Part shown: positions 7,596 to 52,769 of the stretch, one piece after another
How the letters are laid out: every line of letters starts with the position of its first letter
Position numbering within the stretch: position 1 is the first letter of the stretch
Assembly: GCA_022340465.1 (NCBI GenBank)
Contig: JAJDNW010000008.1
Coordinates: 1-61,932, forward strand
Length of the DNA stretch: 61,932 nucleotides
Reading direction: 5' to 3'
DNA from: Deltaproteobacteria bacterium
GTDB lineage: Bacteria > Desulfobacterota > Desulfobacteria > Desulfobacterales > B30-G6
Program-made: the position numbers and the translations under genes
The notes under the pieces: generated by a model
Told to the model about the DNA's origin: nothing
Seen by the model: only the letters and a program-made list of their open reading frames with translations
Database searches by the model: none

Positions 7596-7664
7596 CGGCC
7601 AGCGTACCGCAAAACCTGAAAAACCGAAGATCTTGAAAAAAACCATTCTCGACACAGAAAAAGC

Positions 7665-9419
7665 ATGATGCAACGCTTAGAACAGATAATGCGGACGCAA
7701 TTCGACGTCTCCGAGAGCGATTTGTCCGAGGCCCTCGAGGCCCGGGATGAAAAGGGCGGCGACATCGGCGAGATCCTTTACAGCAGGGGGAAAATCACGG
7801 AAATGCAGCTTCTGGCGGCACGGGGGATGCAATACGGATTTGCGGTCATGGAAAAGATTCCCCTGGGGAACATCCGCCAGGATTTTACCCGCAAGATTTC
7901 GATCCAGTTTCTCAAAAAATATCATATGCTGCCCCTGGAGGGTTTGAAGCCGTCCTCCGGCGACGCCGTTGCGCAACTGGAAAGTGGCGCTTCGGAAGCG
8001 GAAAAAAAGACGTCAGGGTTCGCCATCGCCATCAACGACCCGGCGGATTTCCAGCCGCTGGACGATCTGTGCAGCATGTTGGGCATGGAGGGCTGCCATG
8101 TCGTGCTGGCGACCAAAGAGGAGATCCTGGCCGCCATCAATTTTGCCTATGACATGGGGAGGGATTCGGCCGAGCAACTGGTCCAGAACATGGAGGAAGA
8201 CGACGGGATGATTTTGAGCGAGATAGAAAGCACCGCCGACCTCCTGGATGACACCAGCGACGCCCCCATCATCAAGCTGGTAAATCACATCCTCTCCCAG
8301 TCCATCAAGGCGAGGGCCAGCGACATTCACATCGAACCGTATCAGGAAAGCTTCAAGGTCCGCTACCGGGTGGACGGCATCCTGTACGATCTGCTGACCC
8401 CTCCCAAATGGATCCAGGCATCCCTTATCTCCAGGATCAAGGTGATGGCCAAGCTGAATATCGCCGAGAAAAGGCTGCCTCAGGACGGACGCCTGGAGGT
8501 GAGAATCGGCAGTACGCAGATCGATGTGCGCGTCTCCACCATTCCCACCACTTTCGGGGAGCGCGTCGTTCTCAGGCTGTTGAACAAAACGAGCTCTCTG
8601 CTGAAAATGACCGACCTGGGGCTCAGTGCGGAAGGGCTGGAGAGGGTGAAGCGGCTCGTGTCTTCACCCAACGGCATCATTCTGATAACCGGTCCCACCG
8701 GCAGCGGAAAAACAACGACCTTGTATGCCATCCTTTCCACCTTGAATTCTCCGGACATCAACATCATTACCATCGAGGATCCGATCGAGTATCAAATCAA
8801 CGGGATCAGTCAAATACAGGTGAACCCGAAAATAGGCCTCACCTTCGCCCGCGGGCTGCGCTCCATTGTACGACAGGACCCCGACGTGGTTCTCGTCGGG
8901 GAGATTCGTGACCATGAAACCGCGGAAATAGCCGTGCAGTCGGCGCTTACCGGGCATCTCGTATTTTCGACCCTGCACACCAACGATTCGGCCGGGGCCA
9001 TTACCAGACTCGTCGACATCGGAATCGAACCGTTTCTCATATCCTCTTCGGTTATTGCGGTCGTGGCGCAGCGTCTGGTGCGCGTGCTGTGCAAGAAATG
9101 CAAGGAACCCTACCATCCCAACGAAACGGTTCTGAACAATATCGGCATCCTGCAGGGCGAAATAGGGGAGGCGACCGTTTTCAGGGCGCGGGGGTGCGAA
9201 CATTGCATCAACACAGGGTATCGAGGCCGTATCGGCATATTTGAAATACTGGAGCTGGAGAGCCGCCTGAAAAGCATGATTCTGGGGTCCTTCGACGCCA
9301 ATCGCATCCAGGAGGAAGCGGTGCGCCAGAACCTTATTTCCCTGCGCCGGGACGGTATTCGAAAGGTCCTGGACGGAGATACCACCATCGAGGAGGTCCT
9401 GCGCGTCACCCAAAAATAA
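7665..9419 (+). CDS. gspE: Type II secretion ATPase GspE
   Basis: A cytoplasmic hexameric ATPase that powers pseudopilus assembly, docking on GspL. An N-terminal MshEN/GSPII_E-N-type domain (about residues 1-160) precedes the ATPase core, with Walker A GPTGSGKTTTLYA near residue 342, an Asp box, Walker B DPDVVLVGEIRD near 404, and a tetracysteine zinc element (LCKKC near 476, GCEHC near 511). At 584 residues it is of usual length. It starts with two consecutive ATG codons and no strong Shine-Dalgarno, so the exact start is soft. It ends this part of the operon; gspF-I would be expected upstream of the window. Confidence 0.95.
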   Translation: MMQRLEQIMRTQFDVSESDLSEALEARDEKGGDIGEILYSRGKITEMQLLAARGMQYGFAVMEKIPLGNIRQDFTRKISIQFLKKYHMLPLEGLKPSSGDAVAQLESGASEAEKKTSGFAIAINDPADFQPLDDLCSMLGMEGCHVVLATKEEILAAINFAYDMGRDSAEQLVQNMEEDDGMILSEIESTADLLDDTSDAPIIKLVNHILSQSIKARASDIHIEPYQESFKVRYRVDGILYDLLTPPKWIQASLISRIKVMAKLNIAEKRLPQDGRLEVRIGSTQIDVRVSTIPTTFGERVVLRLLNKTSSLLKMTDLGLSAEGLERVKRLVSSPNGIILITGPTGSGKTTTLYAILSTLNSPDINIITIEDPIEYQINGISQIQVNPKIGLTFARGLRSIVRQDPDVVLVGEIRDHETAEIAVQSALTGHLVFSTLHTNDSAGAITRLVDIGIEPFLISSSVIAVVAQRLVRVLCKKCKEPYHPNETVLNNIGILQGEIGEATVFRARGCEHCINTGYRGRIGIFEILELESRLKSMILGSFDANRIQEEAVRQNLISLRRDGIRKVLDGDTTIEEVLRVTQK

Positions 9420-19222: not shown

Positions 19223-19630
19223 ATGCTGAAAATAGTTCGGGATTTCAACAGGTACCCGCCCAGCGTTAAAAAGGCGGTTGTACTTACGGCTGGGGCTTGG
19301 GTGTGGTTTTACATCTCTCTGGTGCTGATGGACCGGAGCTCCGACACTTTCGTAATCGAGAGACGTTTTCTCATGATCGGTGTGTGCATGTTAGCACTTC
19401 TGGCCAGCATGAAAAATTGGGCCAGACTGGTGTGCCTCATGGGAAACGTGATGGCGGCCCTGTTCTTCATTTTTTCCGTCGTTGTCCTTATCAAGTTGAA
19501 ATTGATTGTCACTTTTCTGACGATAGAAATCGTTCTGTTGCTGCTCTCCAGTATCTACCTGGCTATCAGGCCTTCGGCACAGTTTTTTAGGGAATACAAT
19601 CTGAAACCGGAACCGGGGGAGGGGACATGA
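19223..19630 (+). CDS. Small integral membrane protein
   Basis: 135 residues with about four hydrophobic segments (near 18-37, 49-65, 70-93 and 95-113). No charged catalytic motif or named family is visible. The stop overlaps the GntR-type regulator start by four bases (ATGA), so the two are cotranscribed; whether it belongs functionally with the LysM gene before it or the regulator after it is unclear. Confidence 0.6.
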   Translation: MLKIVRDFNRYPPSVKKAVVLTAGAWVWFYISLVLMDRSSDTFVIERRFLMIGVCMLALLASMKNWARLVCLMGNVMAALFFIFSVVVLIKLKLIVTFLTIEIVLLLLSSIYLAIRPSAQFFREYNLKPEPGEGT

Positions 19631-20427
19631 GAATCGTCGATCCGTCCAACCCCATGCCCAAGTATCTTCAAATCAGCGCTTGGCTGAAGGAATTGATACA
19701 AAGCGGGCGTTTCAAAAGCGGTGAGAAACTGCCCTCGGAGGTGGAGCTTTCCAACCGGTGCCAGGTGCACCGCAACACCCTGCGTCAGGCAATTGCGGAA
19801 TTGGTTTCCCAGGGAATCCTGCGGAAAGAGAAGGGATTCGGCACCTTCGTCACTTTGTCGAAGCCCCTCTCCGTAAAACATCGCCTCAACAAGATATCGA
19901 GCTTCAAAGACGACCTGAGCGAGATCGGGATACAGGAAAAGAACATCATTTTGAAAGCCGAGGTTGTCGTAGCGCCGACACTCGTTGCGGAAAAACTGGT
20001 TCTGGGGCCCGACGCCAGGGCCGTTGTCATTCGGCGGTTGCGGACGGGAGACGGCGTCCCCCTGATATATGAAGAGAGTTACCTGCCGTACAACATGTTC
20101 AAAAACATCATTCGCATGGATCTCACAGGATCCATGTACAAACTTATCTCGAAACAATTCAATACGGTACTCGAGCGCTGCGAACAGGCTATCATGGCCG
20201 TCAGCCTGGAAAAACGCATAGCACGACTTTTAGCGCTTCCGGAAAATTCGGCCGGGTTGTTCATGGAGAGCGTCACCTTCAACGACGGCAATATTCCCGT
20301 CGAGGTATTGTACTCGTATTACCGTGGCGATAAATACCGGTTCGAGGTCGAACTGGGCCGGTATCGTTTTCAGGAAAACGGCATGAACACAATGATAAAG
20401 CACTTGGGAACTGCAGGTTTGCAATAA
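19627..20427 (+). CDS. GntR-family regulator, HutC/UTRA subfamily
   Basis: A ligand-responsive transcription factor. The N-terminal winged helix-turn-helix (about residues 8-75) shows the GntR pattern: PKYLQISAWLKELI, GEKLPSEVELSNRC, HRNTLRQAIAELVSQGIL, then the GFGTFV wing. A UTRA effector-binding domain follows (about 95-245: RRLRTGDGVPLIYEESYLP, then LFMESVTFNDGNIPVEVLYS). The gene stands directly before ald and its own 3' flank carries a TGTATATACA palindrome, the half-site style of HutC operators. It probably regulates the ald-mttB cluster; repressor is the family norm. The ligand is unknown. Confidence 0.88.
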   Translation: MRIVDPSNPMPKYLQISAWLKELIQSGRFKSGEKLPSEVELSNRCQVHRNTLRQAIAELVSQGILRKEKGFGTFVTLSKPLSVKHRLNKISSFKDDLSEIGIQEKNIILKAEVVVAPTLVAEKLVLGPDARAVVIRRLRTGDGVPLIYEESYLPYNMFKNIIRMDLTGSMYKLISKQFNTVLERCEQAIMAVSLEKRIARLLALPENSAGLFMESVTFNDGNIPVEVLYSYYRGDKYRFEVELGRYRFQENGMNTMIKHLGTAGLQ

Positions 20428-20561: not shown

Positions 20562-21677
20562 ATGTTAATCGGCGTATTGAAAGAGATCAAAATCAAGGAG
20601 AACCGGGTTGCCATGACGCCTGCAGGCGCGGAGCAATTGGTCGCCAAAGGGCACGATGTCCTCATTGAAACCGGTGCGGGCGAGGGATCGGTTTTCCCGG
20701 ACAGCGCCTATGAGAAAGTCGGCGCAAAAATAGCCGGCACTGCGGCCGACGTCTATGAAAAGGCCGACATGGTTATGAAGGTAAAAGAACCCCTGCCTGT
20801 CGAATACCCCATGATTCGCAGCGGGCAAATCGTATTCACCTATTTTCACTTTGCCGCTTCCCAGGAACTGACCCGGGCCATGATCGATTCCGGCTGCATT
20901 GCGATCGCCTATGAGACGGTGGCGTGTGCCAACGGATCCCTGCCTCTATTGACCCCCATGAGCGAAGTCGCCGGAAGAATGGCCATTCAGGAAGGGTCCA
21001 AATACCTGGAGAAGACATTCGGCGGCAACGGCGTCCTCTTGAGCGGTGTGCCCGGCGTCGATCCCGGTACGGTGGTCGTCATCGGCGGCGGGGTGGTCGG
21101 TACCAACGCGGCAAAAATCGCCTGCGGCCTGGGCGCCAAGGTCTACCTCCTGGACACCAACCTGGAAAGGCTGCGTTATCTGAGCGATGTCATGCCGGCC
21201 AACTGTTTCCCGGTCATGTCGAATCCGGCGACGCTGCGCAAGCTGCTGCGGGAGGCGGATCTGGTGGTGGGGGCCGTGCTGATTCCCGGAGCCGTGGCTC
21301 CCAAGCTGGTCACCCGCGATATGCTCAAAATCATGAAAAAGGGATCGGTCATCGTCGACGTGGCCATCGACCAGGGCGGCTGCGTGGAAACCGCGAAAGC
21401 CACCACCCACGACGACCCCATCTTCGAGGTGGAGGGTGTGATTCACTATTGTGTAGCCAACATGCCCGGAGCGGTTTCCTTCACTTCGACCAACGCCCTG
21501 ACCAACGCCACCCTGCCGTACGCCATACAACTGGCCGACAAAGGGTACAAAAAAGCGGCCCTGGACAATCCTGAGATCGCCAAAGGAATCAACGTGATCG
21601 GGGGCAAGGTAACCTACAAGGGGGTTGCCGACGCTTTCGGGATGGCCTACGAACCGCTTGAAAGCGTTTTGTCCTGA
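20562..21677 (+). CDS. ald: Alanine dehydrogenase
   Basis: A cytoplasmic NAD-dependent enzyme that interconverts L-alanine and pyruvate plus ammonium. Family features: MLIGVLKEIKIKENRVAMTP opening, catalytic Lys in VMKVKEP near residue 75, catalytic His in TYFHFAA near 96, the Rossmann VVIGGGVVGTNAAKIACGLG near 172-190 followed by the NAD-selecting Asp (LLDTN), and VDVAIDQGG near 270. At 371 residues it is full length. GGAGGA eight bases before the ATG gives a strong ribosome site. Next to an aminotransferase it likely recycles alanine to pyruvate, so that amino groups leave as ammonium, as in the Ald-transaminase pairs of amine and sulfonate degraders. Confidence 0.95.
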   Translation: MLIGVLKEIKIKENRVAMTPAGAEQLVAKGHDVLIETGAGEGSVFPDSAYEKVGAKIAGTAADVYEKADMVMKVKEPLPVEYPMIRSGQIVFTYFHFAASQELTRAMIDSGCIAIAYETVACANGSLPLLTPMSEVAGRMAIQEGSKYLEKTFGGNGVLLSGVPGVDPGTVVVIGGGVVGTNAAKIACGLGAKVYLLDTNLERLRYLSDVMPANCFPVMSNPATLRKLLREADLVVGAVLIPGAVAPKLVTRDMLKIMKKGSVIVDVAIDQGGCVETAKATTHDDPIFEVEGVIHYCVANMPGAVSFTSTNALTNATLPYAIQLADKGYKKAALDNPEIAKGINVIGGKVTYKGVADAFGMAYEPLESVLS

Positions 21678-21770
21678 CCGTTTTCAAACACGGTGCCAAC
21701 AACCGGTTAACAGAAAAGAGATAGCGTGTTGTTTAAAAGTACCAACCATCAACAGAAAGGAGAATCAACC

Positions 21771-22856
21771 ATGAAACCACTTAAAGATTGGATCGTCCCA
21801 TGGCTTTACACGGCAAGAGAATACAATGTTGGGATATTGGATAAAGCCATGGAAAATCCGCAGAATGCCCGACTGATGCTCAATGAAAATCCCATTCCTC
21901 CCTCGGATAAGGTCATCGAAGCAGTCGTAAATTCTCTACGGAACGGCAACTGGTATCCAGATAGTTTCCTACGTCTGAGAACCAAAATTGGTAAGATGTA
22001 CGGTCTGGGCCCGGACAACGTGGCCCTCTGCAACGGTTCTTCGGATACTATCGACGCCATGATGCGCATATTTCTGCAGCCCCGAGACGAGTTTATCATA
22101 TCTCATCCGACCTTTGAACTGTTCCTGACGAGGGCCGAACTGTGCAATGCCAAGGTTGTGCAGATTCCGGTGAGAGAAGACGACCTGCAATACGACGTGG
22201 ATGCCATGCTGGCCTCCATCAATGAACGCACCAAACTGATGCTGATCATCAATCCCAACAATCCCACGGGGGTTTTCATCGACGACGCCGATCTGATTCG
22301 ATTCTGCGAAACCGGGGTTCCCCTGTGCGTAGACGAAGCCTACCTGGACTACAATCCGGACAGACCTTCCAAGGCCTCCCTGGTTGAAAAATATCCGCAC
22401 GTCTTCCTGTCGGTCACCTTTTCCAAGGCCTATGGGTTCGCCGGCATTCGTTTCGGGTTCGTGCTGGGATCGGAAGAGATGATTGCGGCCTTCAACCGCA
22501 TGTTCCTGCCCTGGAACGTGAGCCGGATGTCCGCAGCGGCGGCAGAAGCCATCATCGACAACCCCGATGAGGTCAGTGCCAAGGTAGAACACAACAACAA
22601 ATGGATGGACATTTTTTCCGAAGAACTCAAAAAACTGGGGCTCAAGCCTTTTCCGGCACACGGCAACTACATGCTGATCGATGGCACCATGACCGGTAAA
22701 TCCACCGAGGAGATCGTGGCGGCGGCTCTCGAACAGAGCATCTATCTCAAAAAGATAGGCGAGATTCACGGTAAAACGGGCTATTTCAGGGTGACCCCGG
22801 GTCTGGATGAAGAGAACGAGCGTTTCCTTACCTTTATTCGCAGCTATTTCGGTTGA
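21771..22856 (+). CDS. Class I/II (HisC-like) aminotransferase
   Basis: A PLP fold-type I aminotransferase of about 361 residues, in the histidinol-phosphate aminotransferase-like branch. Landmarks: LNENPIPPSDKV near residue 38, IINPNNPTGVF near 162 (Asn contacting PLP), VDEAYLDYN near 187 (Asp), the Schiff-base Lys in TFSKAYGFAGIRFGF near 217, and the carboxylate-binding Arg in GYFRVTPG near 340. AAAGGAG eight bases before ATG 21771 sets the start. A biosynthetic HisC would normally sit in a his operon; here it lies between ald and an aldolase, so a catabolic transamination using pyruvate is more likely. The substrate is unknown. Confidence 0.85.
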   Translation: MKPLKDWIVPWLYTAREYNVGILDKAMENPQNARLMLNENPIPPSDKVIEAVVNSLRNGNWYPDSFLRLRTKIGKMYGLGPDNVALCNGSSDTIDAMMRIFLQPRDEFIISHPTFELFLTRAELCNAKVVQIPVREDDLQYDVDAMLASINERTKLMLIINPNNPTGVFIDDADLIRFCETGVPLCVDEAYLDYNPDRPSKASLVEKYPHVFLSVTFSKAYGFAGIRFGFVLGSEEMIAAFNRMFLPWNVSRMSAAAAEAIIDNPDEVSAKVEHNNKWMDIFSEELKKLGLKPFPAHGNYMLIDGTMTGKSTEEIVAAALEQSIYLKKIGEIHGKTGYFRVTPGLDEENERFLTFIRSYFG

Positions 22857-22913
22857 CGTCTTTTCATTTAAAACAAACCGCATTGTTTTTTTACACGATG
22901 ATTGGAGGAAGAC

Positions 22914-23789
22914 ATGTCAATTGTAGATGCAAAAGAGATGCTCATAAAAGCGACCGAGGAAAAGTACGCGGTAGGCGCTTTTAACATTACCAACCTGATT
23001 CAGATGGAGGCGGTGGTAGACACGGCCGTGAAGATGAAAGCCCCCCTCATCATCCAAACCTCCGTGACGCCCTCCCAGTTCCTGAATGCGGCGGTTCTGG
23101 GCAATATTTACCGGACTCTGGCCGAATCCGCCCCGATTCCGATCTGCCTTCACCTGGACCACTGCACGGACGTAGATTACTGCAAGACCTGTGCGGATGC
23201 GGGCTACACCAACATCATGATCGACGCGTCCAAGCAGGATTTCGAAGAGAATATCCGGCAGACGCGCGAGGTGAGCGATTACTGCCACGCCAAAGGCGGC
23301 ATATCAGTCGAGGGGGAACTGGGCACCGTGTCGGGCGTTGAAGACCAGATCAAGGTGGCCGAGGACGAAGCCGCCCTCTGCGACCCCGAGCAGGCCTTGA
23401 AATTCGTTGAAGAATCGGGCATCGACATCTTTGCCCCGGCCATCGGAACGGCTCACGGTGTTTACAAGACAAAAAACCCCAAGCTCGACTTCGACCGCAT
23501 GGAGAAGATCTTTGGGCTGATCAACGGTGACGGAGTCAAAACGCCGCTGGTGGTGCACGGCGGTACGGGTCTGAAGCCGGACGTGGTCAAGCGCCTGGTT
23601 TCCCTGGGTGGATCCAAGTTCAACGTGTCCACGGATTTGAAACACGCCCTCATCGATAGCACCTACGGCTATATCGCGGACCACCGGGACGAGTACAATC
23701 CCGGCAAAATAGACATTGCCGTCAGGCAAGCCATCGCGGACAGAATAGTCTATTGGATCGACCTTTTGGGCAGTGCGGAAAAGGCCTGA
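22914..23789 (+). CDS. Class II (zinc) aldolase, fructose/tagatose-bisphosphate type
   Basis: A metal-dependent aldolase of the FbaA/KbaY/GatY family, about 291 residues. Zinc ligands and catalytic residues appear in order: HLDHCTD near residue 82 (catalytic Asp is in the neighbouring segment), VEGELGTVSGVED near 133, GTAHGVYK near 178, VHGGTGL near 208, and the phosphate-binding FNVSTD near 232. The start ATG follows GGAGGA by five bases. Its place between the aminotransferase and a HAD phosphatase suggests retro-aldol cleavage of a phosphorylated or amino-derived intermediate rather than glycolysis. The actual substrate cannot be told from sequence. Confidence 0.85.
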   Translation: MSIVDAKEMLIKATEEKYAVGAFNITNLIQMEAVVDTAVKMKAPLIIQTSVTPSQFLNAAVLGNIYRTLAESAPIPICLHLDHCTDVDYCKTCADAGYTNIMIDASKQDFEENIRQTREVSDYCHAKGGISVEGELGTVSGVEDQIKVAEDEAALCDPEQALKFVEESGIDIFAPAIGTAHGVYKTKNPKLDFDRMEKIFGLINGDGVKTPLVVHGGTGLKPDVVKRLVSLGGSKFNVSTDLKHALIDSTYGYIADHRDEYNPGKIDIAVRQAIADRIVYWIDLLGSAEKA

Positions 23790-23957: not shown

Positions 23958-24719
23958 ATGCCAGAAATAAAAGCAATCTTTTTCGATCAGGACGGTGTGA
24001 TCATCGACACCGAAAAAGATGGGCACCGGGTTGCCTTCAACAAGGCTTTCGAGGCGTTCGGGTATGATTTCGCATGGGATGTGGATAAATACCATGACCT
24101 GCTGCGCGTATCCGGCGGAAAAGAACGCATGCGGGCCTACTTCAAGGAGGAGGGGCTGTTTGCGGACATGTCGGAAGAGGACCTGGGGGAACACATCAAA
24201 AATCTGCACAAGACCAAAACCGGACTGTTTATCAAACTGATCGAGAGCGGCGCCCTGCCGCTGAGAAGCGGCATCCGGCGGTTTATGGAAGAGGGCGTGG
24301 CAGCGGGCCTCACCCTGGGCGTCTGTACCACGGCCAACGAAAGGTCGGCCAACGCCATCGCCAAGGGAATGCTGGGTGACATTCCCTTCAACTTTGTTCT
24401 GGCCGGAGACGTCGTCAGCAAGAAGAAGCCCGACCCGGAAATCTACCTGATGGCTTTGGAAAAGACCGGGTTGGCACCGGAAAACTGCCTCGTGATTGAA
24501 GACTCGCGGGTAGGGGTGCTTGCCGCCAAAGCCGCCGGCATGAACGTGGTGGCCACCACCAATGTCTACACCGAGAACGAAGACCTGGACGATGCCGACA
24601 TCATCGTCAGCTGCCTGGGCGATACCGACGGTGAAAAGGGAACCCTGAAAAAGGGCGACCCGAAACTGCAACACGACGGCGTACTGCGTGTCGAACAGCT
24701 AGTGGCCTATTTTGCGTAA
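23958..24719 (+). CDS. HAD-superfamily phosphatase, CbbY/beta-phosphoglucomutase-like
   Basis: 253 residues. HAD motifs: I, FFDQDGVIIDTE near residue 8 (nucleophile Asp and general acid Asp); II, CTTANE near 120; III, KKKPDPEIY near 156; IV, VIEDSRVGVLAAKAAGM near 180. A C1-type helical cap lies between motifs I and II. The C-terminal 30 residues extend beyond the usual core. A strong GGAGGAGGA lies before the ATG. It is between the aldolase and mttB and shares the 18-bp upstream motif with ald. Phosphatase or phosphomutase activity is expected; it lacks the marks of phosphonoacetaldehyde hydrolase. Confidence 0.8.
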   Translation: MPEIKAIFFDQDGVIIDTEKDGHRVAFNKAFEAFGYDFAWDVDKYHDLLRVSGGKERMRAYFKEEGLFADMSEEDLGEHIKNLHKTKTGLFIKLIESGALPLRSGIRRFMEEGVAAGLTLGVCTTANERSANAIAKGMLGDIPFNFVLAGDVVSKKKPDPEIYLMALEKTGLAPENCLVIEDSRVGVLAAKAAGMNVVATTNVYTENEDLDDADIIVSCLGDTDGEKGTLKKGDPKLQHDGVLRVEQLVAYFA

Positions 24720-24786: not shown

Positions 24787-24810
24787 TCAGCAAACAAACA
24801 GAGGTGACAA

Positions 24811-26295
24811 ATGACCATTAATTATCAACAGGCCAATCTTCTCAATGCCGGCAGCTTCGGATTGAACGTCCTTAGCCCCGATGACATCGAGCAGATCCAC
24901 AGAGCCACCCTCGATGTTCTCTGGAGCATCGGGCTGAAAGTGATGAGCCCCCGTGCCCGAACCATATTCGGGGATCACGGGTGCCCGGTGGATGAAAAGA
25001 GCCAGATTGTAAAAATCAGACCGGACCTGGTGGAGGACGCCATTCAGTCGACGCCGGCCGCCTATCGCGCGCACGCAATCGATCCGGCAAACGACTACGT
25101 ACCGGGAGGCAAGAAAACCGGGTTCGTCAATTTCGGTGAAGCCGCCCAACTTATCGATCCGGTGACGCGCAAACTGCGGGATGCCACCAAGGCGGACGTC
25201 GACAATACCGTGCGCTTCATTGACAAACTGGACAATGTCGTCGGTTGGGAAAGACCTTTGACCCCCCGCGACCTGGACGAGGACATGGCCAGCATTTACA
25301 ACGCCTACTCCTTTTTCAAACACTCGTCAAAGCACGGCTTTCTGGGCATCTATTCCGTGGAGCACTTTGAAGCGGCGGTAAAGATGGGCGCCGTGCTCGC
25401 CGGCGGAGAGGACAAACTGAGCCAGGCACCGCTGTTCACCTGCTCCGCCGACCCGGTGAGCCCATTGGTCCTGACCGAGGAGGCCACGGACGTCCTGATC
25501 GAGTCCTGCAAATTCGGCATCCCCATCAAAATCAACGGGCTGGGTCTGTGCGGCGGCACCACCTGCGTGGATCTTGCCAGCACCCTGGTGACCCATAATT
25601 CCGAGGTGCTCGGCTCGATTACCCTGGGACAGCTGGTGCGCAAAGGCGCTCCCATGGTCTACGGCAGTTCCACCAGCATCATGGACCTGCGGACGACACT
25701 GGCCGCCATGGGCGCACCGGAAATGGCCATGCTGAGCGCTGCGGTGGCCAAACTCGCCCAGTTCTACAAAATGCCGTCCTGGGTGGGCGGCGGATAGGTT
25801 GACAGCAAGAGACTCGACGCCCAGTCCGGCCACGAGTTCACCCTGACAGCCCTCGTACCCGCGTTGGCAGGTGCCAACATGATTTACGGCGTCGGGATGC
25901 TCGACAGTGCCTTGGCCTGGGACTACGCTTCGGCCATGCTGCAAAATGAATTTCTGGATATGGTCCTGATGGTTGTCAACGGCATCAACGTGTCCGAAGA
26001 AAATATAAACTACGATGTCATCAAACAGGTCGGGCCCGCAGGGGAGTTCATTACCCATGAACACACGCTGAAAAATTTTCGGCGCATGTCCAAAACCCGC
26101 TTCATGAACCGTGACAACCGTGAAAACTGGGAATTGGCCGGATCACCGGATATCGCCGAAAGGGCCTATGAAGCCTCCATGGACATTCTGGAAAACTACC
26201 AGCCGGAACCCCGCCCGGATGCGGTTCAGCAGGAGCTTGACAGCATCTATGCAGAGTTCGAGGCACGCGTTAAGGAACGGAAGGCAAAGAAATGA
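24811..26295 (+). CDS. mttB: Trimethylamine methyltransferase MttB with in-frame amber (pyrrolysine) codon
   Basis: Moves a methyl group from trimethylamine to a cognate corrinoid protein in anaerobic methylamine use. Codon 329 is TAG (25795-25797), flanked by SWVGGG and VDSKRLDAQSG. Reading continues open for 165 further residues with family-typical sequence (LAGANMIYGVGMLDSALAWD) to TGA at 26293-26295. The 494-residue total and the amber position match archaeal MttB (about 495 residues, pyrrolysine at 334). The start has AGAGGTGA before the ATG. No corrinoid protein (mttC), reactivase or pyl gene lies in the window. Pyrrolysine insertion is inferred. The alternative, a nonsense mutation, fits poorly because the site and downstream frame are conserved. 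Confidence 0.9.
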
Positions 26296-26354: not shown

Positions 26355-26434
26355 ACCGCTCGAGCCCTGGAACCCTTTTTTCGCTTTCGTGTTTTCGTGA
26401 TTGATTTTAAATTGTAAGGCTCTTGGTACAAACG

Positions 26435-27142
26435 ATGCCGGTTAAAGCCATCATTTTCGACCTCGACGGCACCCTGTTGGACACGCTGGAGGACATTGCC
26501 GATGCCGTCAACCGCGTCTTGCTGGCCGACGGTTTTTCAACCCATCCGCTTGAAGCCTATCGAAATTTTGTGGGAGACGGCAGTGAGATGCTTGTCAAGA
26601 GGGCGCTGCCTGAGGACCGGCGTTCCGAAGATGCCGTCAAGAAGGCGCTCACGGCTTTCAAGGAAAGCTATGGCCGGAGCTGGAACCGCAAGACCCGCCC
26701 TTACGACGGTATTCCGGAACTGCTGGACGAACTCACCAAGCACAGGATTCGGATGGCCGTCTGCAGCAACAAGCCCCACGAATTTACGAAGCTGAGCGTA
26801 GTCGAAATGCTGGGCCGTTGGCGATTCGACCGGGTTCTTGGACAAAGCCGTCAATATCCCCGAAAGCCCGCTCCGGCAATGGCGCTGGCCATTGCGGACC
26901 ACATGCGGATTCATCCCGGAGAAGCGTTGTTTGTCGGCGATTCCGGGGTGGACATGCAGACGGCCGCAGCGGCGGGTATGTTTCCGGTGGGTGCGGCCTG
27001 GGGCTTCCGGACGAAAGCGGAACTGGTGGAAAACGGCTGCAGGTTTCTGGCTCGCCACCCCCGGGAGGTGTTACAGGTGATTTCAGACAGGAATGCCTCA
27101 TCATTGGACATTGCACATCGAAATTCAGGATCACATCGTTGA
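26435..27142 (+). CDS. gph: Phosphoglycolate-phosphatase-like HAD protein
   Basis: A HAD subfamily IA phosphatase resembling Gph, which removes phosphate from 2-phosphoglycolate. Motif I IIFDLDGTLLDT near residue 5, motif II VCSNKP near 109, Lys of motif III in RKPAPAM near 145, and motif IV LFVGDSGVDMQTAAAAGM near 167. It has the C1 cap between motifs I and II. I take ATG 26435; the frame is also open to a TTG 12 bases earlier. It lies after the mttB repeat element, so it may be outside that cluster. The specific substrate is by resemblance only. Confidence 0.78.
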   Translation: MPVKAIIFDLDGTLLDTLEDIADAVNRVLLADGFSTHPLEAYRNFVGDGSEMLVKRALPEDRRSEDAVKKALTAFKESYGRSWNRKTRPYDGIPELLDELTKHRIRMAVCSNKPHEFTKLSVVEMLGRWRFDRVLGQSRQYPRKPAPAMALAIADHMRIHPGEALFVGDSGVDMQTAAAAGMFPVGAAWGFRTKAELVENGCRFLARHPREVLQVISDRNASSLDIAHRNSGSHR

Positions 27143-38656: not shown

Positions 38657-41600
38657 TTACCTGCCGGGCTTGAAGGCCTTGAACAGAGAGGCATCCATCA
38701 CGGCTTCATAACCGGTCATTTTAGCTGCCAGCCGTTTGTTTTCATCCACCAGGAGAAAGTTGCCCGTCATCTTGTGTTTGGTGAGATCGGTCACCTCCAG
38801 CACGGCGGTGACGCCCTTAGCGGGAAACGTCTCGCAATACTGCCGGTAACTGGCGCAGTAACTGGGCAGGGATACCTGGCCGGTCTCCTCATAGCACCAG
38901 ACCGTGGCCATCTGGAAGGCGCAGTCCAGAACAAGGGGATCCGCGATCCAGCCGCTTCGCAAGTGTTCCCGGATCCATCGGGAGGGGGATGGCGCCGATG
39001 ATATCCTGGCGGTCATGCCCCTGGGCGAACAGGATAGGATTTCCTTGATGCCGCGCAGTTCGATACCGTGAAAAAGGATCTCCTCATAGACTTCCCCGGC
39101 ACTGCGGTGGTATCCGTCCTCCGACAGGAAGCGGCCCAGGTCGACTGACGGCGGTTCCGGCATGGCATCCAGCAAAATAGCTTTTCCGCGGGAGTGAATG
39201 ACGTCTTTGCCCTCCAGCATGCCGTCCCGAAGTTCGAGACTCACCTCGTAATGGCCATTCTTTCTGCTGGTCTTGCCCGCAAAGAGGCGGATCAATTTCT
39301 TTTTGTCGACCAGTTTGACCCCTTTGAGAATGCGCATGTCATCCAGGCCGTGCAGCACCAGACCCGGATTTTCGTGCAGTGCTCCGTGACCGAACCACTC
39401 GGTTATCAAGGAGAAGGGGACCACCGGGTTGCCACCGATGACGTGTGACGTCAGGATGGGATAATCATGCGTGTCGATCTCTTTTTTGAACGAGAGCGTC
39501 ATGGGGGGCTCGTCTTCGGGCACCGCCTTACCTGCCGGCGTCCCTTCAGCCGTGGCTGCATCGACATCGATGGATCGGGAAGGCAGTGACGACCCGATAA
39601 CGATCTCCACCGGGTCGTTGCCGGACCGGCCCATGGCGGCCACCAGGCTGCGGGCGCCTTCTTTCAGGGGAATGAGGCCTACATGCTGCTTTTTGAAAGC
39701 CGTGCGGAGAGCGGGTGTCACCATTCCGCCGTCCCAGGGGCCCCAGTTGACGGCCAGCGTGCGGCACGCGGGGTGCTGCCGCGAAAAGGCGGCAGCCATT
39801 TTGTTGAGGGCCTCGTTGGCCATGGCGTAATCCACTTGCCCGGCGTTGCCGATCCTGGCGCTGATGGATGAGAAAATCACCAGGTGTTTCAGCGGGTCGT
39901 TTTTAACGCATGACAGCAGGTTGCGGAGCCCGGACACCTTGGTGCCGTAAACCATATCGAACTGTGATGGGCTTTTGTCGACGATCAACCGGTCTTCGAT
40001 GACGCCCGCTCCGTGAACGATGGCCGTGACAGGGCCCAAGCTGCTGCGAACCGTCTCCAGCGCTTCGGCGACCCGATCATGTTCGCGAACATCCACAGAA
40101 AGATACATGGCTCTTGTCCCGAGGGTTTCCAGCTTTTCCAGGGTGGCCCGCACCTCACGGCTGGCCATGTGCCGTACAAACGATTGTTCTATCTCTTTGG
40201 GTGAAGCGCCGTTGTTGTTGAATTCATTTTCCAGAATGGCCCGCTTTATAGCGGCCGTGTCGTCAAGCCCGCGCAGCCAGGCGGGTTCCGCGGCCGGCTG
40301 GGGAGACCGTCCCATAAGGGCCATGGCGGCGCCCGTCCGTCCGGCCAGTGCTTCGGCCGCTGCGGCGGTCACCCCCCTTGCGCCTCCGGTAACCACGATG
40401 ACGTCGCCGGCGTCCAGGTCAAGCCGGGAGGGCTCGCTTTCAATTGCTTCGTGCGGCTGGTTTTGCAGGACCGGTGTGCGGCGTTGAGTCGACGTCAGGC
40501 CGATTTCCAGGGGGCCGGAGATTGTCGGTTCCATCAGTTCTTCGGCGACCCTGTCGGCGATCGCGGAAAGGTCCTCCCAGAGGGGGTCGATGTCCAGCGC
40601 CCGGCAGGTTACCCCGTGCCACTCGAGGGCGGCGGTCTTTGTCAATCCCGCCAGTCCGCCCATAACAGGGTTGTCGATTTCACGGCCCGCGAATCCGAAT
40701 GCGCCGTCGAGCCTGGTAATCGTGGCAAACAGGAGGTCGTCGCCCCGGTCACCCCGGTGCTTTTCCCGGCGGTCCGGATTTGCGGCGAAGGACTTTGCCA
40801 GTTGAAAAGCGCTTTTTAGAAACACGTCTTCGTCCGCTCGATTTTCGAAACGTTCGGGGGCAGGGATGATCAGGCCGGCGGCATCCGTCAACGTCTGCCC
40901 GTCCAGAATCAGTGCGGCAGCATCGTCCCGGGACAGGACACAGGCCGCAACCCCGCGCTCACCGAGTGATGCGACAAGGGCGGCGGCGAATGGGCCGCCG
41001 TCGTCGAGTAGGTAAAGCTTGCGCCCGGGCCGGAATCGTAAACGGCGGGTTTGGGAACGCAGTGCGTTCTCGACGGTCACGGTCTTCCAGTCGAGGGCGG
41101 GCGCCGGTGATTCGGGAGGACCGGCTTCCTGCGCTTGTTCGTTTACCGGCGGTGCGCTTTCCGACCGCCCGGATGAGCGGCCGGAAGCATCGGTTCCGGT
41201 GGTCGGCACCCGTGGGGCTTCACCGCGGTGTTCGTCGCCGGCATCGCCTGACTCGCTGAGATGGGCGGAGATCTGTCCGAGGGTTTTCAGACTGCCCATC
41301 AGATCCGGGGTTACCTCCGGAAGGCCGGGCATCCGTTCCTCGAGGGTGGACAGGATTTCCACGCGTTTGATGGAATCGATGCCCAGGTCGGCCTCGACGT
41401 CCATGTCCATGCTCAGCATTTCCCGCGGGTAGCCGGTCAGTTCGCTGACCACCTGAATCAGGGTTTGTGATATATCCGTCACTTCGGTGGCGGCGGCGAA
41501 TTCAGCACTACCGGCACGGGAAAGCACATCGCCGGACGAATACACCGGTTGTGCATCGGAGGCGATTCCCCCGATGTGAGCCGCGATTTGTCCCAGTGTT

Positions 41601-44600
41601 TTCAAGGCCGCCATTGTCTCCGGCTCCATCGGCGGCAAATCGGGCAACCGTTCTTCGAGGGTGGACAAAATTTCGACGCGTTTGATGGAATCGATGCCCA
41701 GGTCGGCCTCGATGTCCATGTCCAAGTTCAGCATTTCCACCGGATAGCCGGTCAGATCACTGACGACGTTCAGCAGGGTGGCAGAGGTTGCATCTGACTG
41801 ATCGGACTGCCTGATATTGTGCGAGATGGAATGGTCGGGTTCGATCTGCGACGCGCTCGATTCGGTCGCCGGCGCCGCTGCAGGGGCATGCCCGCGCCGG
41901 GCTTCGACGATTTTCGCAGGGGGTGCGGGGGGCACCTGGGGCCGTTCATGCACACTGCCCGCATCCGGCACGGTGGCCGCCGGCCGACCGGGTTGTGCGG
42001 CCGCGATGCCGAGGGATGCTTCCGCAAGGCGCTGAACGCTTTCCATCATGTGCTGCAGGGTGCGGCCGGAGGCGGCTTGGGTCTCCAGAAATTTCTGGTG
42101 GGCTTCTGCGGTTCTGGCCTGGAGCGCCCGCATTGATCTCAGTCCCTCGGTGACTGTCTTGAGGGCACTTTCCACATGGGTAGACGGCGTGGTCTGTATG
42201 CCGTTCCTGTCTGTATTTTTCATGGCTGGTATTGAAGGCTTGTTCGGGTTTCTGTTGTTAGTGGTGACTGCCGGTGAAGCCGTGGGCACGGCGTTCTCTC
42301 CGGTAAAAATCGAGTGCTTGAGCTGTGGCGGCTTCACGGGTTGCCCGACGGCCGGCGGCCCTTCTGCCGCGGTCCGGACAGGCTTTTTTGACGGCAAGGG
42401 GGGATGCGGTGGAACCGTTGATTGCCCGTGTGTCTGGTCAACAGGCTTTTCCGGGCGATAGTTGGCGCCGCTCAGCATGACGGTCATGCGCTGCTTTTCA
42501 GGGGCGGCGGCTTTTTCTTCCCAGGCGTCTAGAGAAACGGGACAGCCCGTGACGGCAAGCGTGGACAAGGTGCAGGCCAGATCAATGAGGCCGTACTGTC
42601 TTCCACCGGAAGCATCCATGGCAACGGCGTGGAATGACTTCTTGGACAGGATGGTTTTGACAAGGTCGGTGAGGACGCTTTTGGGGCCGACTTCCACAAA
42701 GGTCCGGATGCCCGCGGCATGCATATTTTCGATCATGGATGTAAAACGGACCGGGTTTACCATCTGCCGGGCCAGTGTTTTCACGGCCTGTTCAGGTGTG
42801 GTTTCATAGGGCCGTCCGGTGCTGTTGGCATAGACCGGTATGCTGCCGGAAACGAATTGCGACCTGCGCACCTCCTGTTCGAAGGGGTGTTGTCCCCCCT
42901 GAATCAAGGGGCTGTGAAAGGCCGCCGAAACCGGCAGCCGCATGCCGTGAAGCCCTTTTTCCCTCAAGCGTCCCTCGGCACGTTCGATGCCCTCGATGGG
43001 GCCGGAAAGTACGGCCTGTTCGGGGCTGTTGAAATTTGCCAGGACGACATCGGGGACGTTACGGATAAGGTTCTCGATCGTTCCAAGGGGCGCCTTGACA
43101 GCCAGCATGGTGCCTTCCGGTCCCTTGCCGGCCGCATCTGCCATCGCCTTTCCGCGTACCGCGGACAGACGCATGAATGTTTGCCGGTCGATAAAACCGG
43201 CGGCATGCAGGGCGCTGAGTTCACCGTAGCTGTGACCGCATACGGCATCCGGCTTCAGGCCGAAGCGGCCGAGGATGTCGAACATGGCAAGGCTGATGCT
43301 GCCGATAGCGGGCTGGGCGATATCGGTGCGGTTCAGCTGCTGCCGTTCTTTCGATTGCGACCTTGAAAAGGGCCGTGGAAAAATGGCGTCACTGACAGCA
43401 CTGCCGGCATCCATGAGGCTGTCGGCCAGTTCGAGGGCTTCCAGCCCTTCGGGAAAGATAGCGCACAAGTCGCGGCCCATGCCCTGATATTGGCTGCCCT
43501 GACCGGGAAAGATGAAAGCGAGGTCACCGGGACACCGGCCCTGCATGTAAAAAATCTGTTTCTCGAGGTGGACTTTCCGGCTGGTTTCGGGACGGTCGAT
43601 AGCGGCCGCAGCCTGCTTCAGCATCGCTTTGAGACTGTCCCTGTCAACTGCCGGATCTGCGGTCAGTTCGTGAACAAAGGCGAGGCGCAGGGGGGCGTTG
43701 GCGGAGAATCGGTTCCGGGTGGCAGCGGCCAGCCGATTGATGTCGAGCCGATGGACGGGCCCGGCATCCACACGGCGCTGCATTTCCGCAAGGCCTTTTT
43801 TAAGGTTGTCCTTGTTTTGCGCCGAAAAGGCGAAAATTTCCACCGATCCATCCCAGGACACATCTTTTTTACGGCTGCCGTATTCCTCGAGCACCAGATG
43901 AAAGTTGCTGCCGCCGAAACCGAAGGAACTCACGCCGGCGCGCCGCGGGTGTTCCCGATGGGCCAGCCAGGGTCGGTTCTCCGAATTGATGAAGAAGGGC
44001 GAGTCTTCGATGTCCAGGTCGGGGTCCGGGGCAACGGCCTTCAGGGTAGGGGGCAGCACCTTGTTTTTTAGGGCCAGTGCCGCCTTGATGATCCCGGCGG
44101 CACCGGCTGCCGCTTTGGTGTGGCCGATCATCGATTTGACGGAACCGACAGCGATGGGGCTGTTTCCGGCAATCGCGCCGAATGCCGTTTTCAGCGCGTT
44201 CAGTTCGACTTTGTCCCCCACACGGGTGCCGGTGCCGTGGGCTTCCACAAGGCCGACGGTGGCCGGTTCAACGCCTGCATTTTCATAGGCCCTGCGGAGG
44301 GCCTTGGCCTGTCCTTCGGCATTCGGGGCGTAAATGCTTTGCGACTTTCCGTCGCTGGAACTGCCCATGCCCTTGATAACGGCGTAGATGTTGTCGCCAT
44401 CCTGTTCGGCCCGGTCGAGGCTTTTCAACACGAGCATGCCGAGGCCTTCCCCCAGAACCGTGCCGTCCGCATCTTTCGAAAAAGGACGGATGTCGCCGGT
44501 TTTGGAAAGGATCATGGTTTTCGAAAAGCACATGTGCATGAAGATGTCGTTGATGGTGTCCACGCCGCCGGTAACCACCATGTCACTGCTGCCGGACTGC

Positions 44601-45289
44601 AGTTCCAGCATGGCTAAGTGGACGGCGCTCATGGAACTCGCGCAGGCGGCATCCACGACGCAGTTTGTTCCGCCAAGGTCGAGGCGGTTGCAGATCCTTC
44701 CGGCAACGACATTTCCCAAAAGCCCCGGAAAAGAGTTTTCCTGCCAGGGAACATAGGCGTCGGCAATGCGTTGAACAATATTTTCGACCGATCCCGGGTC
44801 GAGTCCCTCCTTTTGCATAGCGTCCCGCCAAATAGGGTGCCCCAGCCTGGAACCCAGAGGAATAACCATTTCCTGGGTCCCGGTGACCCCTAGTACGACA
44901 CTGGTGCGATCACGGTCGAACTCGCGTCCCGAATGGCCATAGCCGGCGTCCAGGAGGGCGTCCCTGGCGGTTACGAGCGCCAGGAGTTGGGAGGTGTCGG
45001 TGGCTTCAATCGTAGCGGGGGGAATGCCGAACTCGGACGGGTCGAAGGCGATGTGAGGCAAGAAACCGCCGCGTCGGCAATAAACCAGATCGGCTTTCCC
45101 GGGTTCCTGACTGAAGTAGGCCTCCGTGGACCAGTGCGTATCGGGGATGTCGCCGATGGCGTCTCTGCCGCGGGACAGAAGCTGCCAGAACGCCTTGAGT
45201 CCCGGGGACCGGGGGAAGAGACACCCCATCCCGATAATGGCGATGGGCATGTTTTGTATATGATTCGAATCGGTTTCGTTTTTAGGCAT
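38657..45289 (-). CDS. PfaA-like polyketide/PUFA synthase megasynthase (KS-AT-ACP-ACP-KR-DH)
   Basis: An iterative type I synthase of 2210 residues (numbering here runs four higher, from the open frame). KS: 17-470, Cys in VVDAACASS at 220, His in VEAHGTGT at 355 and MIGHTK at 394. AT: 590-900, FPGQGSQYQGMG, Ser in GHSYGEL at 691. A Pro/Ala linker and a helical segment (1040-1100) lead to two tandem ACPs (about 1172-1245 and 1277-1350), each with LGIDSIKRVEIL, Ser 1205 and 1310. KR: 1630-1900, TGGARGV, Tyr 1825. DH: 1945-2200, His 1953, Asp 2126. The LGIDSIKR ACPs and KS type place it with PUFA-synthase-like enzymes; no chain-length or condensation partner, thioesterase or ER is present. PfaD nearby supplies the reductase. 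GGAAAG sets ATG 45289. Confidence 0.92.
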   Translation of the reverse strand: MPKNETDSNHIQNMPIAIIGMGCLFPRSPGLKAFWQLLSRGRDAIGDIPDTHWSTEAYFSQEPGKADLVYCRRGGFLPHIAFDPSEFGIPPATIEATDTSQLLALVTARDALLDAGYGHSGREFDRDRTSVVLGVTGTQEMVIPLGSRLGHPIWRDAMQKEGLDPGSVENIVQRIADAYVPWQENSFPGLLGNVVAGRICNRLDLGGTNCVVDAACASSMSAVHLAMLELQSGSSDMVVTGGVDTINDIFMHMCFSKTMILSKTGDIRPFSKDADGTVLGEGLGMLVLKSLDRAEQDGDNIYAVIKGMGSSSDGKSQSIYAPNAEGQAKALRRAYENAGVEPATVGLVEAHGTGTRVGDKVELNALKTAFGAIAGNSPIAVGSVKSMIGHTKAAAGAAGIIKAALALKNKVLPPTLKAVAPDPDLDIEDSPFFINSENRPWLAHREHPRRAGVSSFGFGGSNFHLVLEEYGSRKKDVSWDGSVEIFAFSAQNKDNLKKGLAEMQRRVDAGPVHRLDINRLAAATRNRFSANAPLRLAFVHELTADPAVDRDSLKAMLKQAAAAIDRPETSRKVHLEKQIFYMQGRCPGDLAFIFPGQGSQYQGMGRDLCAIFPEGLEALELADSLMDAGSAVSDAIFPRPFSRSQSKERQQLNRTDIAQPAIGSISLAMFDILGRFGLKPDAVCGHSYGELSALHAAGFIDRQTFMRLSAVRGKAMADAAGKGPEGTMLAVKAPLGTIENLIRNVPDVVLANFNSPEQAVLSGPIEGIERAEGRLREKGLHGMRLPVSAAFHSPLIQGGQHPFEQEVRRSQFVSGSIPVYANSTGRPYETTPEQAVKTLARQMVNPVRFTSMIENMHAAGIRTFVEVGPKSVLTDLVKTILSKKSFHAVAMDASGGRQYGLIDLACTLSTLAVTGCPVSLDAWEEKAAAPEKQRMTVMLSGANYRPEKPVDQTHGQSTVPPHPPLPSKKPVRTAAEGPPAVGQPVKPPQLKHSIFTGENAVPTASPAVTTNNRNPNKPSIPAMKNTDRNGIQTTPSTHVESALKTVTEGLRSMRALQARTAEAHQKFLETQAASGRTLQHMMESVQRLAEASLGIAAAQPGRPAATVPDAGSVHERPQVPPAPPAKIVEARRGHAPAAAPATESSASQIEPDHSISHNIRQSDQSDATSATLLNVVSDLTGYPVEMLNLDMDIEADLGIDSIKRVEILSTLEERLPDLPPMEPETMAALKTLGQIAAHIGGIASDAQPVYSSGDVLSRAGSAEFAAATEVTDISQTLIQVVSELTGYPREMLSMDMDVEADLGIDSIKRVEILSTLEERMPGLPEVTPDLMGSLKTLGQISAHLSESGDAGDEHRGEAPRVPTTGTDASGRSSGRSESAPPVNEQAQEAGPPESPAPALDWKTVTVENALRSQTRRLRFRPGRKLYLLDDGGPFAAALVASLGERGVAACVLSRDDAAALILDGQTLTDAAGLIIPAPERFENRADEDVFLKSAFQLAKSFAANPDRREKHRGDRGDDLLFATITRLDGAFGFAGREIDNPVMGGLAGLTKTAALEWHGVTCRALDIDPLWEDLSAIADRVAEELMEPTISGPLEIGLTSTQRRTPVLQNQPHEAIESEPSRLDLDAGDVIVVTGGARGVTAAAAEALAGRTGAAMALMGRSPQPAAEPAWLRGLDDTAAIKRAILENEFNNNGASPKEIEQSFVRHMASREVRATLEKLETLGTRAMYLSVDVREHDRVAEALETVRSSLGPVTAIVHGAGVIEDRLIVDKSPSQFDMVYGTKVSGLRNLLSCVKNDPLKHLVIFSSISARIGNAGQVDYAMANEALNKMAAAFSRQHPACRTLAVNWGPWDGGMVTPALRTAFKKQHVGLIPLKEGARSLVAAMGRSGNDPVEIVIGSSLPSRSIDVDAATAEGTPAGKAVPEDEPPMTLSFKKEIDTHDYPILTSHVIGGNPVVPFSLITEWFGHGALHENPGLVLHGLDDMRILKGVKLVDKKKLIRLFAGKTSRKNGHYEVSLELRDGMLEGKDVIHSRGKAILLDAMPEPPSVDLGRFLSEDGYHRSAGEVYEEILFHGIELRGIKEILSCSPRGMTARISSAPSPSRWIREHLRSGWIADPLVLDCAFQMATVWCYEETGQVSLPSYCASYRQYCETFPAKGVTAVLEVTDLTKHKMTGNFLLVDENKRLAAKMTGYEAVMDASLFKAFKPGR

Positions 45290-45361
45290 CATTCTTTCCA
45301 AGCCTGCCGCATGCGTTGCGGCGTTTTTCCAATTCCGGAACAGGGAACCGCTTTAAATTTT

Positions 45362-45392
45362 AATATATATATCACAAACAGCGTGTGATCAA
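45362..45392 (-). promoter_or_regulatory. MerR-style promoter of the megasynthase
   Basis: On the minus strand, TTGATC (45392-45387) and TATATT (45367-45362) are separated by 19 bases, longer than the usual 17. The spacer holds the dyad ATCACA-N7-TGTGAT (45371-45389, arms overlapping the -35). A 19-base spacer with a central dyad is the known layout of MerR-activated promoters. Predicted start is about 65 bases before the ATG. Confidence 0.5.
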
Positions 45393-45413
45393 GGATTAGG
45401 TAAAAATTTAAAG

Positions 45414-45442
45414 TTGTCAAATTGATATAACAACTATATAAT
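45414..45442 (+). promoter_or_regulatory. Promoter of the MerR-like regulator
   Basis: TTGTCA (45414-45419) and TATAAT (45437-45442), 17-base spacer. The dyad AGTTGT-N12-ACAACT (45412-45435) covers the -35 and spacer, fitting autoregulation. The promoter points to the gene at 45563. Confidence 0.55.
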
Positions 45443-45505
45443 CACACAGGTTTCAAATAGATGCAGTCAGATGAAAATATGTTTATTTGGATCATCCTCA
45501 ATAGT

Positions 45506-45523
45506 TGAAACGCTCAGTTGAGC
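45506..45523 (+). promoter_or_regulatory. Third copy of the TGAAACGCTCA motif
   Basis: TGAAACGCTCAGTTGAGC ends 39 bases before the MerR-like gene start, close to the spacing seen before ald. In this copy GCTCAGTTGAGC is a perfect palindrome. Confidence 0.45.
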
Positions 45524-45562
45524 CGTATACACCCCTTGAACTGCATGGCGGTTGGCTGAAAA

Positions 45563-46165
45563 ATGGTAACCTTTTATTCAAACCGGGATATCAGCGAACG
45601 GCTTGGGATCCGTTTGACCAAGTGGAAACGCTGGTCGCGTGAATTTTTACCGCCGGACCCCCTGGGTGGCCTGCGCTCTGGTTATGCGCGTCAATACAGT
45701 ATCGATCAGGCGTTTATCGTGTTTCTCGGCGGACACCTCGTGGCGGATATGCATTTTTCGATACCGGAGGCCAAAAAGATCGCTGCGGATTTGGCCGGCT
45801 GGTTCGAAAAACAGGGACCCCTGGTCGACCGCTCCGGAAATGGGTCGCAAGCAAATTCATCCCATCCATGGCCCAAAGACACGGCGGTCACCATATACAG
45901 ACGCGCTCCTAAGGACCTACATCAGGCTCAAACCGACAGCGGCTTTTTTTACGTCCAAAGGACGTGTCTGGCCGACGAAGGCTTTGAAAAGGGCGGGCCC
46001 CGTGTCCGCAGGGAAACCTATCGTGAAGAGGTGATACCGTCCGCATCGGGAGCGGTGCCCGGCGATGCAGGAGAAACCCTTGAAAAAATAGACGGGCGCA
46101 TATTGTATGCGAGCCAGTTGAGGAACCGCTTCGTAAACAAGTTGCTGGGTACTGCCCCGGCGTGA
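45563..46165 (+). CDS. MerR-type helix-turn-helix regulator
   Basis: 200 residues. The N-terminal segment (about 1-70) has a MerR-like winged helix: YSNRDISERLGIRLTKWKRW, then ARQYSIDQAFIVFLGGHLV, and FSIPEAKKIAADLAGWFEK as a helix. The middle is a variable acidic/Gly-rich linker, and the C-terminal part (RETYREEVIPSASG, then LYASQLRNRFVNKLLG) has no known domain. It is divergent from the megasynthase and upstream of pfaD's end, so it probably controls both. Effector unknown. No clear Shine-Dalgarno; the ATG gives a normal HTH start. Confidence 0.65.
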   Translation: MVTFYSNRDISERLGIRLTKWKRWSREFLPPDPLGGLRSGYARQYSIDQAFIVFLGGHLVADMHFSIPEAKKIAADLAGWFEKQGPLVDRSGNGSQANSSHPWPKDTAVTIYRRAPKDLHQAQTDSGFFYVQRTCLADEGFEKGGPRVRRETYREEVIPSASGAVPGDAGETLEKIDGRILYASQLRNRFVNKLLGTAPA

Positions 46166-46241
46166 GGCTGCAATGCCAACACAACCTGTCAAATGGGTTT
46201 GCTGAATCAGCGGCCTCAGGCAGAGCCTTCCAGTATGAGGA

Positions 46242-46259
46242 AAACCCCTCGAAGGGGCC
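46242..46259. terminator. Weak bidirectional stem-loop between convergent genes
   Basis: CCCCT-CGA-AGGGG (46245-46257) in the gap between the convergent MerR-like and pfaD genes. A run of T (46291-46297) is over 30 bases away, so terminator strength is doubtful. Confidence 0.35.
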
Positions 46260-46407
46260 TGCGCTGCCGTCGGCGCCGATTTGTTACAAGATTTTTTTCT
46301 CTGTTTTTTATATTTCTGTTGAGCAGATATGATACCGGCAAAGGCAAGCAACCCGAGGAACCCGCTAACCCAATGAACTCAATGAACCCGTCGACCCACG
46401 TTGGGCC

Positions 46408-50439: not shown

Positions 50440-50509
50440 TTTCAAATTTCCGCACAGAGGGCCGGTGCGGGATGCCTTCGTCACTGGAAAGATGCAACAG
50501 GAACCCTTG

Positions 50510-52756: not shown

Positions 52757-52769
52757 CAGGTAATCGAAC

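Follow-up and report, generated by a model that had tools for sequence, protein, structure and literature searches.

A divergent deltaproteobacterial mttB gene with a probable pyrrolysine codon and a conserved hairpin 3' of the UAG

The mttB reading frame of Deltaproteobacteria bacterium (GCA_022340465.1) contains an in-frame UAG codon, which raises the question of whether this codon is a stop or a sense codon for pyrrolysine (Pyl). The window, i.e. the whole 61,932-nucleotide stretch of DNA that was analyzed, is contig C8 of a draft genome of 4.39 Mb (162 contigs, 95% complete). The frame extends from the ATG at 24811 to the TGA at 26293-26295, and the single TAG at codon 329 with 165 codons after it, as given in a preliminary description of this gene, was confirmed within its 494 codons. 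A TGA considered as lying inside the gene was rejected, as it is the codon immediately 5' of the ATG. The features of the gene are as follows.

24801..24806, + strand: Shine-Dalgarno-like GAGGTG (from the sequence)
24811..26295, + strand: mttB, putative pyrrolysine-dependent methylamine:corrinoid methyltransferase, 494 aa with UAG read as Pyl (TIGR02369, PF06253)
25540..25542, + strand: Leu244, replacing pocket Met249, clade-specific
25795..25797, + strand: in-frame UAG, codon 329, predicted to be read as pyrrolysine (equivalent to Pyl334 of M. barkeri MttB)
25795..25894, + strand: match to Rfam PYLIS_3 (RF02510), 73.7 bits, gathering threshold 38
25863..25878, + strand: conserved hairpin GUUGGC-AGGU-GCCAAC, +68 to +83 from the U of the UAG
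25885..25887, + strand: Tyr359, equivalent of catalytic Tyr364 of M. barkeri MttB (PMC9842639)
25909..25911, + strand: Ala367, replacing corrinoid-contacting Gly372, clade-specific

When the TAG was treated as a residue, the full product scored 559.7 bits over residues 16-482 against NCBIfam TIGR02369, an equivalog model for the pyrrolysine-containing trimethylamine (TMA) methyltransferase with a cut-off of 525, and 283 bits against Pfam MTTB (PF06253). The codons after the TAG are therefore typical of the family, as had been proposed. The frame 3' of the TAG stayed open in only 19 of 20,000 base shuffles of that part, indicating that its openness is not due to chance. A comparison with solved structures placed residue 329 on the X (Pyl334) of M. 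barkeri MttB (PDB 7xcl), which bears out its suggested equivalence to the archaeal pyrrolysine. The equivalents of Gly110 and Tyr364, both reported to be fully conserved, are also present (Gly109 and Tyr359).

A sequence search identified 13 relatives in named genomes, mostly Desulfobacterales, with 49-84% identity; all 13 contained TAG at the same codon with an open frame beyond it. No relatives of the gene were found in plasmid and viral collections. In the nine relatives at 77-84% identity, 44-66% of the fourfold-degenerate third positions differed, and for the part 3' of the TAG dN was 0.14-0.22 and dS 1.1-2.3, such that dN/dS was low. Synonymous sites are thus nearly randomized while the TAG has been kept. 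As the TAG is conserved and dN is low relative to dS, we conclude that codon 329 is neither a stop nor a recent nonsense mutation. A pseudogene or a split into two genes was rejected on the same grounds. That the UAG is a true stop, leaving either an mttB pseudogene or a 328-aa protein with no further product, is scarcely credible: UAG does serve as an ordinary stop elsewhere in this genome, but purifying selection of the same kind acts on the part after the UAG in the nine relatives, the codon is retained throughout the relatives, and the genome contains the Pyl machinery.

The preliminary description held that the host decodes UAG as pyrrolysine and made this depend on pyl genes being present elsewhere in the genome; a complete set was found on contig C9 (locus L039). 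This contig encodes tRNA-Pyl, PylSc (323.7 bits), PylB (483.7 bits), PylC (400.6 bits) and PylD (229.8 bits), all of these profile scores exceeding the curated cut-offs, as well as PylSn, which was detected separately (129.6 bits); PylS is therefore split in this genome into PylSn and PylSc. The tRNA-Pyl, identified in a scan that covered the loci examined, has a CUA anticodon, and its fold shows 6 bp in the anticodon stem, a D loop of 3 nt and a single base separating the acceptor stem from the D stem. Two UAG-containing mtbB genes, a corrinoid gene, an MtrH/MetH-like methyltransferase gene, a UAG-containing mttB and a non-UAG mttB are encoded on the same contig. Of 29 MttB-family matches genome-wide, four contain an internal TAG at the active-site position, and each of the five mtbB genes has one TAG. 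An MtmB homologue without UAG that adjoins a corrinoid gene was also observed (G000 C3:10165-11508); it can be compared with the non-pyrrolysine MtmB homologue that is needed for tetramethylammonium use in Methanococcoides (PMC13044021).

Pyl decoding was described as rare in sulfate reducers, a type of bacterium to which the host may belong, and in a sample of 395 genomes from the phylum pylS was indeed found in only six. Three genomes in this sample carry the window mttB clade, and all three have pylS (P = 1.3e-4 for the two besides the host genome). Twelve carriers were named through the loci. Nine of them have a complete PylSc. In one (G406) a PylSc fragment lies at the edge of a contig, and none was found in the other two, whose genomes are 2.6 and 3.1 Mb in size. 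A Pyl cassette together with UAG-containing mttB and many non-Pyl MttB paralogues was previously described for marine Deltaproteobacteria with a dual code expansion, which are Desulfobacterales-like (Kivenson 2021; PMC8318568). The window gene differs from that case in lying away from the pyl cassette and in a separate clade, and the host has four mttB and five mtbB genes with UAG.

Other genes of the host still use UAG as an ordinary stop. In the examined stretches of the genome about 13 of 83 long open reading frames end at UAG, some of these being Pyl sites, and Pfam-backed genes, e.g. gspD and recJ in the window and an M29 peptidase gene, terminate at UAG; a global reassignment of UAG was rejected on the basis of such genes. 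Pyl decoding is therefore expected to compete with termination, and some truncated MttB product should be made. At another locus (L043, from 7662-9275 onward), a sugar-kinase-like gene ends in TAG and a transporter-like gene follows in the same frame; read-through at this TAG would fuse the two.

It is very improbable that another suppressor tRNA inserts an ordinary residue at the UAG. Sequence alone leaves room for such a tRNA, since only the examined loci were scanned for tRNAs, but codon 329 coincides with the Pyl334 position, a dedicated tRNA-Pyl and PylS are present, and the catalytic tyrosine partner is kept only alongside UAG. The Tyr364 equivalent occurs in every UAG-containing mttB copy, and the non-UAG copies nested beside the window clade (L007/L010 on C9 and L012/L015 on C28) have Phe at this position and Ala or Ile at the Pyl position, an apparent fit to loss of pyrrolysine with a matching change of the active site. 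UAG codon 329 is thus almost certainly a sense codon for pyrrolysine. This reading, which is a known kind of biology, is as well established as sequence data allow. In the mechanism that we propose, Pyl-tRNA would compete with release factor at the mttB UAG, and the full-length MttB would use the pyrroline ring at residue 329 to bind an N-methylated amine, whose protonation Tyr359 would assist. A corrinoid protein from another part of the genome would then accept the methyl group, which would finally reach folate. No corrinoid partner gene was seen in the window, and TIGR02370 matches are present on other contigs.

Beyond what was described previously, the gene is one of nine UAG-containing genes of the host, belongs to a divergent clade, and contains a conserved hairpin 3' of the UAG. 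The hairpin has a 6-bp stem and the consensus [G/A]UUGGC-AGGN-GCCAA[C/U]. In the alignment of post-TAG DNA, GCGTTGGCAGGTGCCAAC was nearly invariant, even in a paralogue at 42% protein identity. The hairpin was present in 30 of 37 UAG-containing mttB genes and in 0 of 40 non-UAG homologues. Among genes that were not selected on the motif, the codons were Leu TTG in 29 of 33, Ala GCA in 28 of 33 and Ala GCC in 32 of 34, and in a small control, two non-UAG paralogues that share the ALAGAN peptide used other codons and had no stem. When codons were shuffled such that the protein was preserved (31 non-redundant genes), 0 of 300 shuffles matched the observed pairing; fully paired rows amounted to 84% compared to 3.5% expected. 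RNAalifold supported only the hairpin, and a larger consensus fold around the UAG was rejected.

The outer base pair was GC in 19, AU in 10 and GU in one of the 30 element-bearing genes, and AC in none. In 26 non-redundant element-bearing genes this pair ranked first for covariation among all pairs of columns between -60 and +200; its pair-count covariation score was reached by 0 of 500 shuffles, and slid registers came nowhere close in cells paired. Kinship of the sequences inflates all of these hairpin statistics, and their firmest part is the repeated switching of the outer pair, which occurred about seven times on the tree, with at least four switches forced by well-supported branches. From the alignments, the hairpin is very probably a selected RNA structure.

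The motif also has dyad symmetry, and conservation and a motif scan alone cannot tell RNA from DNA. TTGGC-AGGN-GCCAA could in principle be a palindrome in the DNA that is bound by a protein, i.e. an operator inside the gene. We consider such an operator improbable, as GC/AU covariation of the outer positions with GU allowed and no AC is predicted by pairing and not by independent half-sites. In addition, the motif was found at no other place with ≤1 mismatch in the 0.64 Mb of loci examined, promoters included, and it is missing from non-UAG mttB.

Returning to an RNA hairpin, we compared it with known recoding elements. The window matches the mttB element PYLIS_3 over 100 nt from the UAG, but the Rfam consensus structure, through which alone archaeal mttB DNA was compared, contains no stem at +68..+83, where the window hairpin is strongly constrained and covarying. 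According to a study of mRNA structure in Pyl genes, mttB has no shared structure (Have 2013; PMC3639795). In methanogens, the PYLIS in mtmB is dispensable for read-through but raises the yield (PMC2933860, PMC3639795). The host mtbB genes match PYLIS_2 (RF02509, mtbB), of which a hairpin at a similar distance, +73..+90, is part; 0 of 300 shuffles scored above this mtbB hairpin, but the null maximum was close. UAG-containing mtbB genes in L039, L041, L101, L104, L105, L109, L110 and L113 have an AGAU-loop hairpin at +73..+90 with strong synonymous conservation. The mttB hairpin motif was absent from the mtbB genes. The bacterial SECIS is likewise a hairpin in the coding sequence 3' of a recoded stop, but it follows directly after the codon, whereas the mttB hairpin lies 66 nt past it. 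To our knowledge, there is no dedicated elongation factor for Pyl.

The structure found in mttB is thus of the kind that characterizes a PYLIS-type element, i.e. conserved and covarying 3' of the UAG, and it is new as far as the literature searched shows. We propose that this hairpin, 68-83 nt downstream, may be a cis-acting RNA element that favours read-through in this mttB group; its putative role in promoting UAG decoding has about an even chance of being correct. As the fourth UAG-containing mttB of the same genome (on contig C117) and its clade are without the hairpin, it is not essential for every UAG. We hold the main explanation, UAG as a sense codon for pyrrolysine, with great confidence on the strength of sequence comparisons. 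Ever since PYLIS was put forward for mtmB, it has been debated whether pyrrolysine insertion needs a cis signal. The hairpin of bacterial UAG-containing mttB genes covaries, is fixed at synonymous sites and is absent from non-UAG paralogues with the same peptide, so that the question can be put to a direct test in a standard reporter host.

The window MttB is about 35% identical to M. barkeri MttB (TIGR02369; PDB 7xcl/7xcm), with which it shares the family, the length, the UAG/Pyl position and the Gly110 and Tyr364 equivalents. In a maximum-likelihood tree of 72 members, in which some long branches meet, the window gene was placed in a clade of 11 members (100/100), whose sister group consists of three more distant UAG-containing genes (100/100). 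This clade is apart from the C9-type and M. barkeri-type copies, both of which also occur in the same bacteria. Met249 was replaced by Leu and Gly372 by Ala in 11 of 11 clade members, whereas Met and Gly are retained at these sites in M. barkeri and in the remaining UAG copies. The M. barkeri structures show that Met249 moves aside to let TMA in and that Gly372 is in contact with the corrinoid (PMC9842639). Two further differences from M. barkeri MttB are the lack of an adjacent corrinoid gene and the replacement of Thr111 by Glu, the latter being common to most other UAG copies from these bacteria. What is new here is the hairpin, whose structure is well supported and whose function is putative, and this divergent clade of apparent Pyl-MttB proteins with an altered pocket.

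Several genes around mttB form a conserved cluster or adjoin it.

19627..20427, + strand: GntR/UTRA regulator (HutC/PhnF-like), start of the conserved cluster
20562..21677, + strand: alanine dehydrogenase (TIGR00518, 514 bits)
21726..22856, + strand: HisC-like PLP aminotransferase (just below the TIGR01141 cut-off)
22902..23789, + strand: class II (ketose-bisphosphate type) aldolase
23958..24719, + strand: HAD-family hydrolase directly 5' of mttB (adjacent also in L046, L050 and L052)
26423..27142, + strand: phosphoglycolate-phosphatase-like HAD protein, 3' of mttB (also downstream of mttB in L052)

The regulator, alanine dehydrogenase, aminotransferase, aldolase, HAD and mttB genes are on one strand, and from alanine dehydrogenase on they are separated by 45-170 bp. 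Parts of the cluster lie beside mttB in L046, L050, L051, L052 and L053, and in L050 mttB is followed by genes for a betaine-type ABC transporter and a choline-kinase-like protein. In L098, L099 and L100, from genomes without pylS, the GntR-alanine dehydrogenase-HisC core, or HisC with the aldolase, is present next to transaldolase/transketolase-like genes and SBP_bac_6-type ABC transporters; this core may specify an as yet unassigned amine or amino-sugar pathway.

The window MttB is probably just a divergent trimethylamine methyltransferase with incidental neighbours. Its score exceeds the TMA equivalog cut-off, the neighbouring genes vary among relatives and are not beside mttB in L047-L049, L054 and L095, and the core also occurs without mttB or pylS. 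Arguing against this are the replacements of Met249 by Leu and of Gly372 by Ala throughout the clade, the cluster linkage retained in the five loci listed above, and a TIGR02369 score far below the 773 bits of the C9 copy. Leu244 and Ala367 lower the claim of TMA as the substrate, not that of family membership. The altered pocket and the gene neighbourhood make a methyl donor other than TMA plausible, and such a substrate is a possibility that we put forward tentatively. If so, a Pyl enzyme with an altered pocket could widen pyrrolysine chemistry beyond mono-, di- and trimethylamine. A joint proposal, that the bacterial mttB hairpin raises Pyl insertion and is lost where UAG is replaced, and that the window clade is a Pyl methyltransferase for a non-TMA N-methylated compound whose demethylated product would enter an aminotransferase/alanine dehydrogenase/aldolase pathway, is speculative and rather unlikely to hold in full.

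Two other regions of the window were recorded. The region 38657-48045 encodes a 2214-aa protein with ketosynthase, acyltransferase, ACP and KR domains next to a FabD-like protein, an arrangement that resembles a synthase for polyunsaturated fatty acids or polyketides. At 50465-55328, genes for a CHASE2-adenylate/guanylate cyclase and a CHASE2-protein kinase are neighbours.
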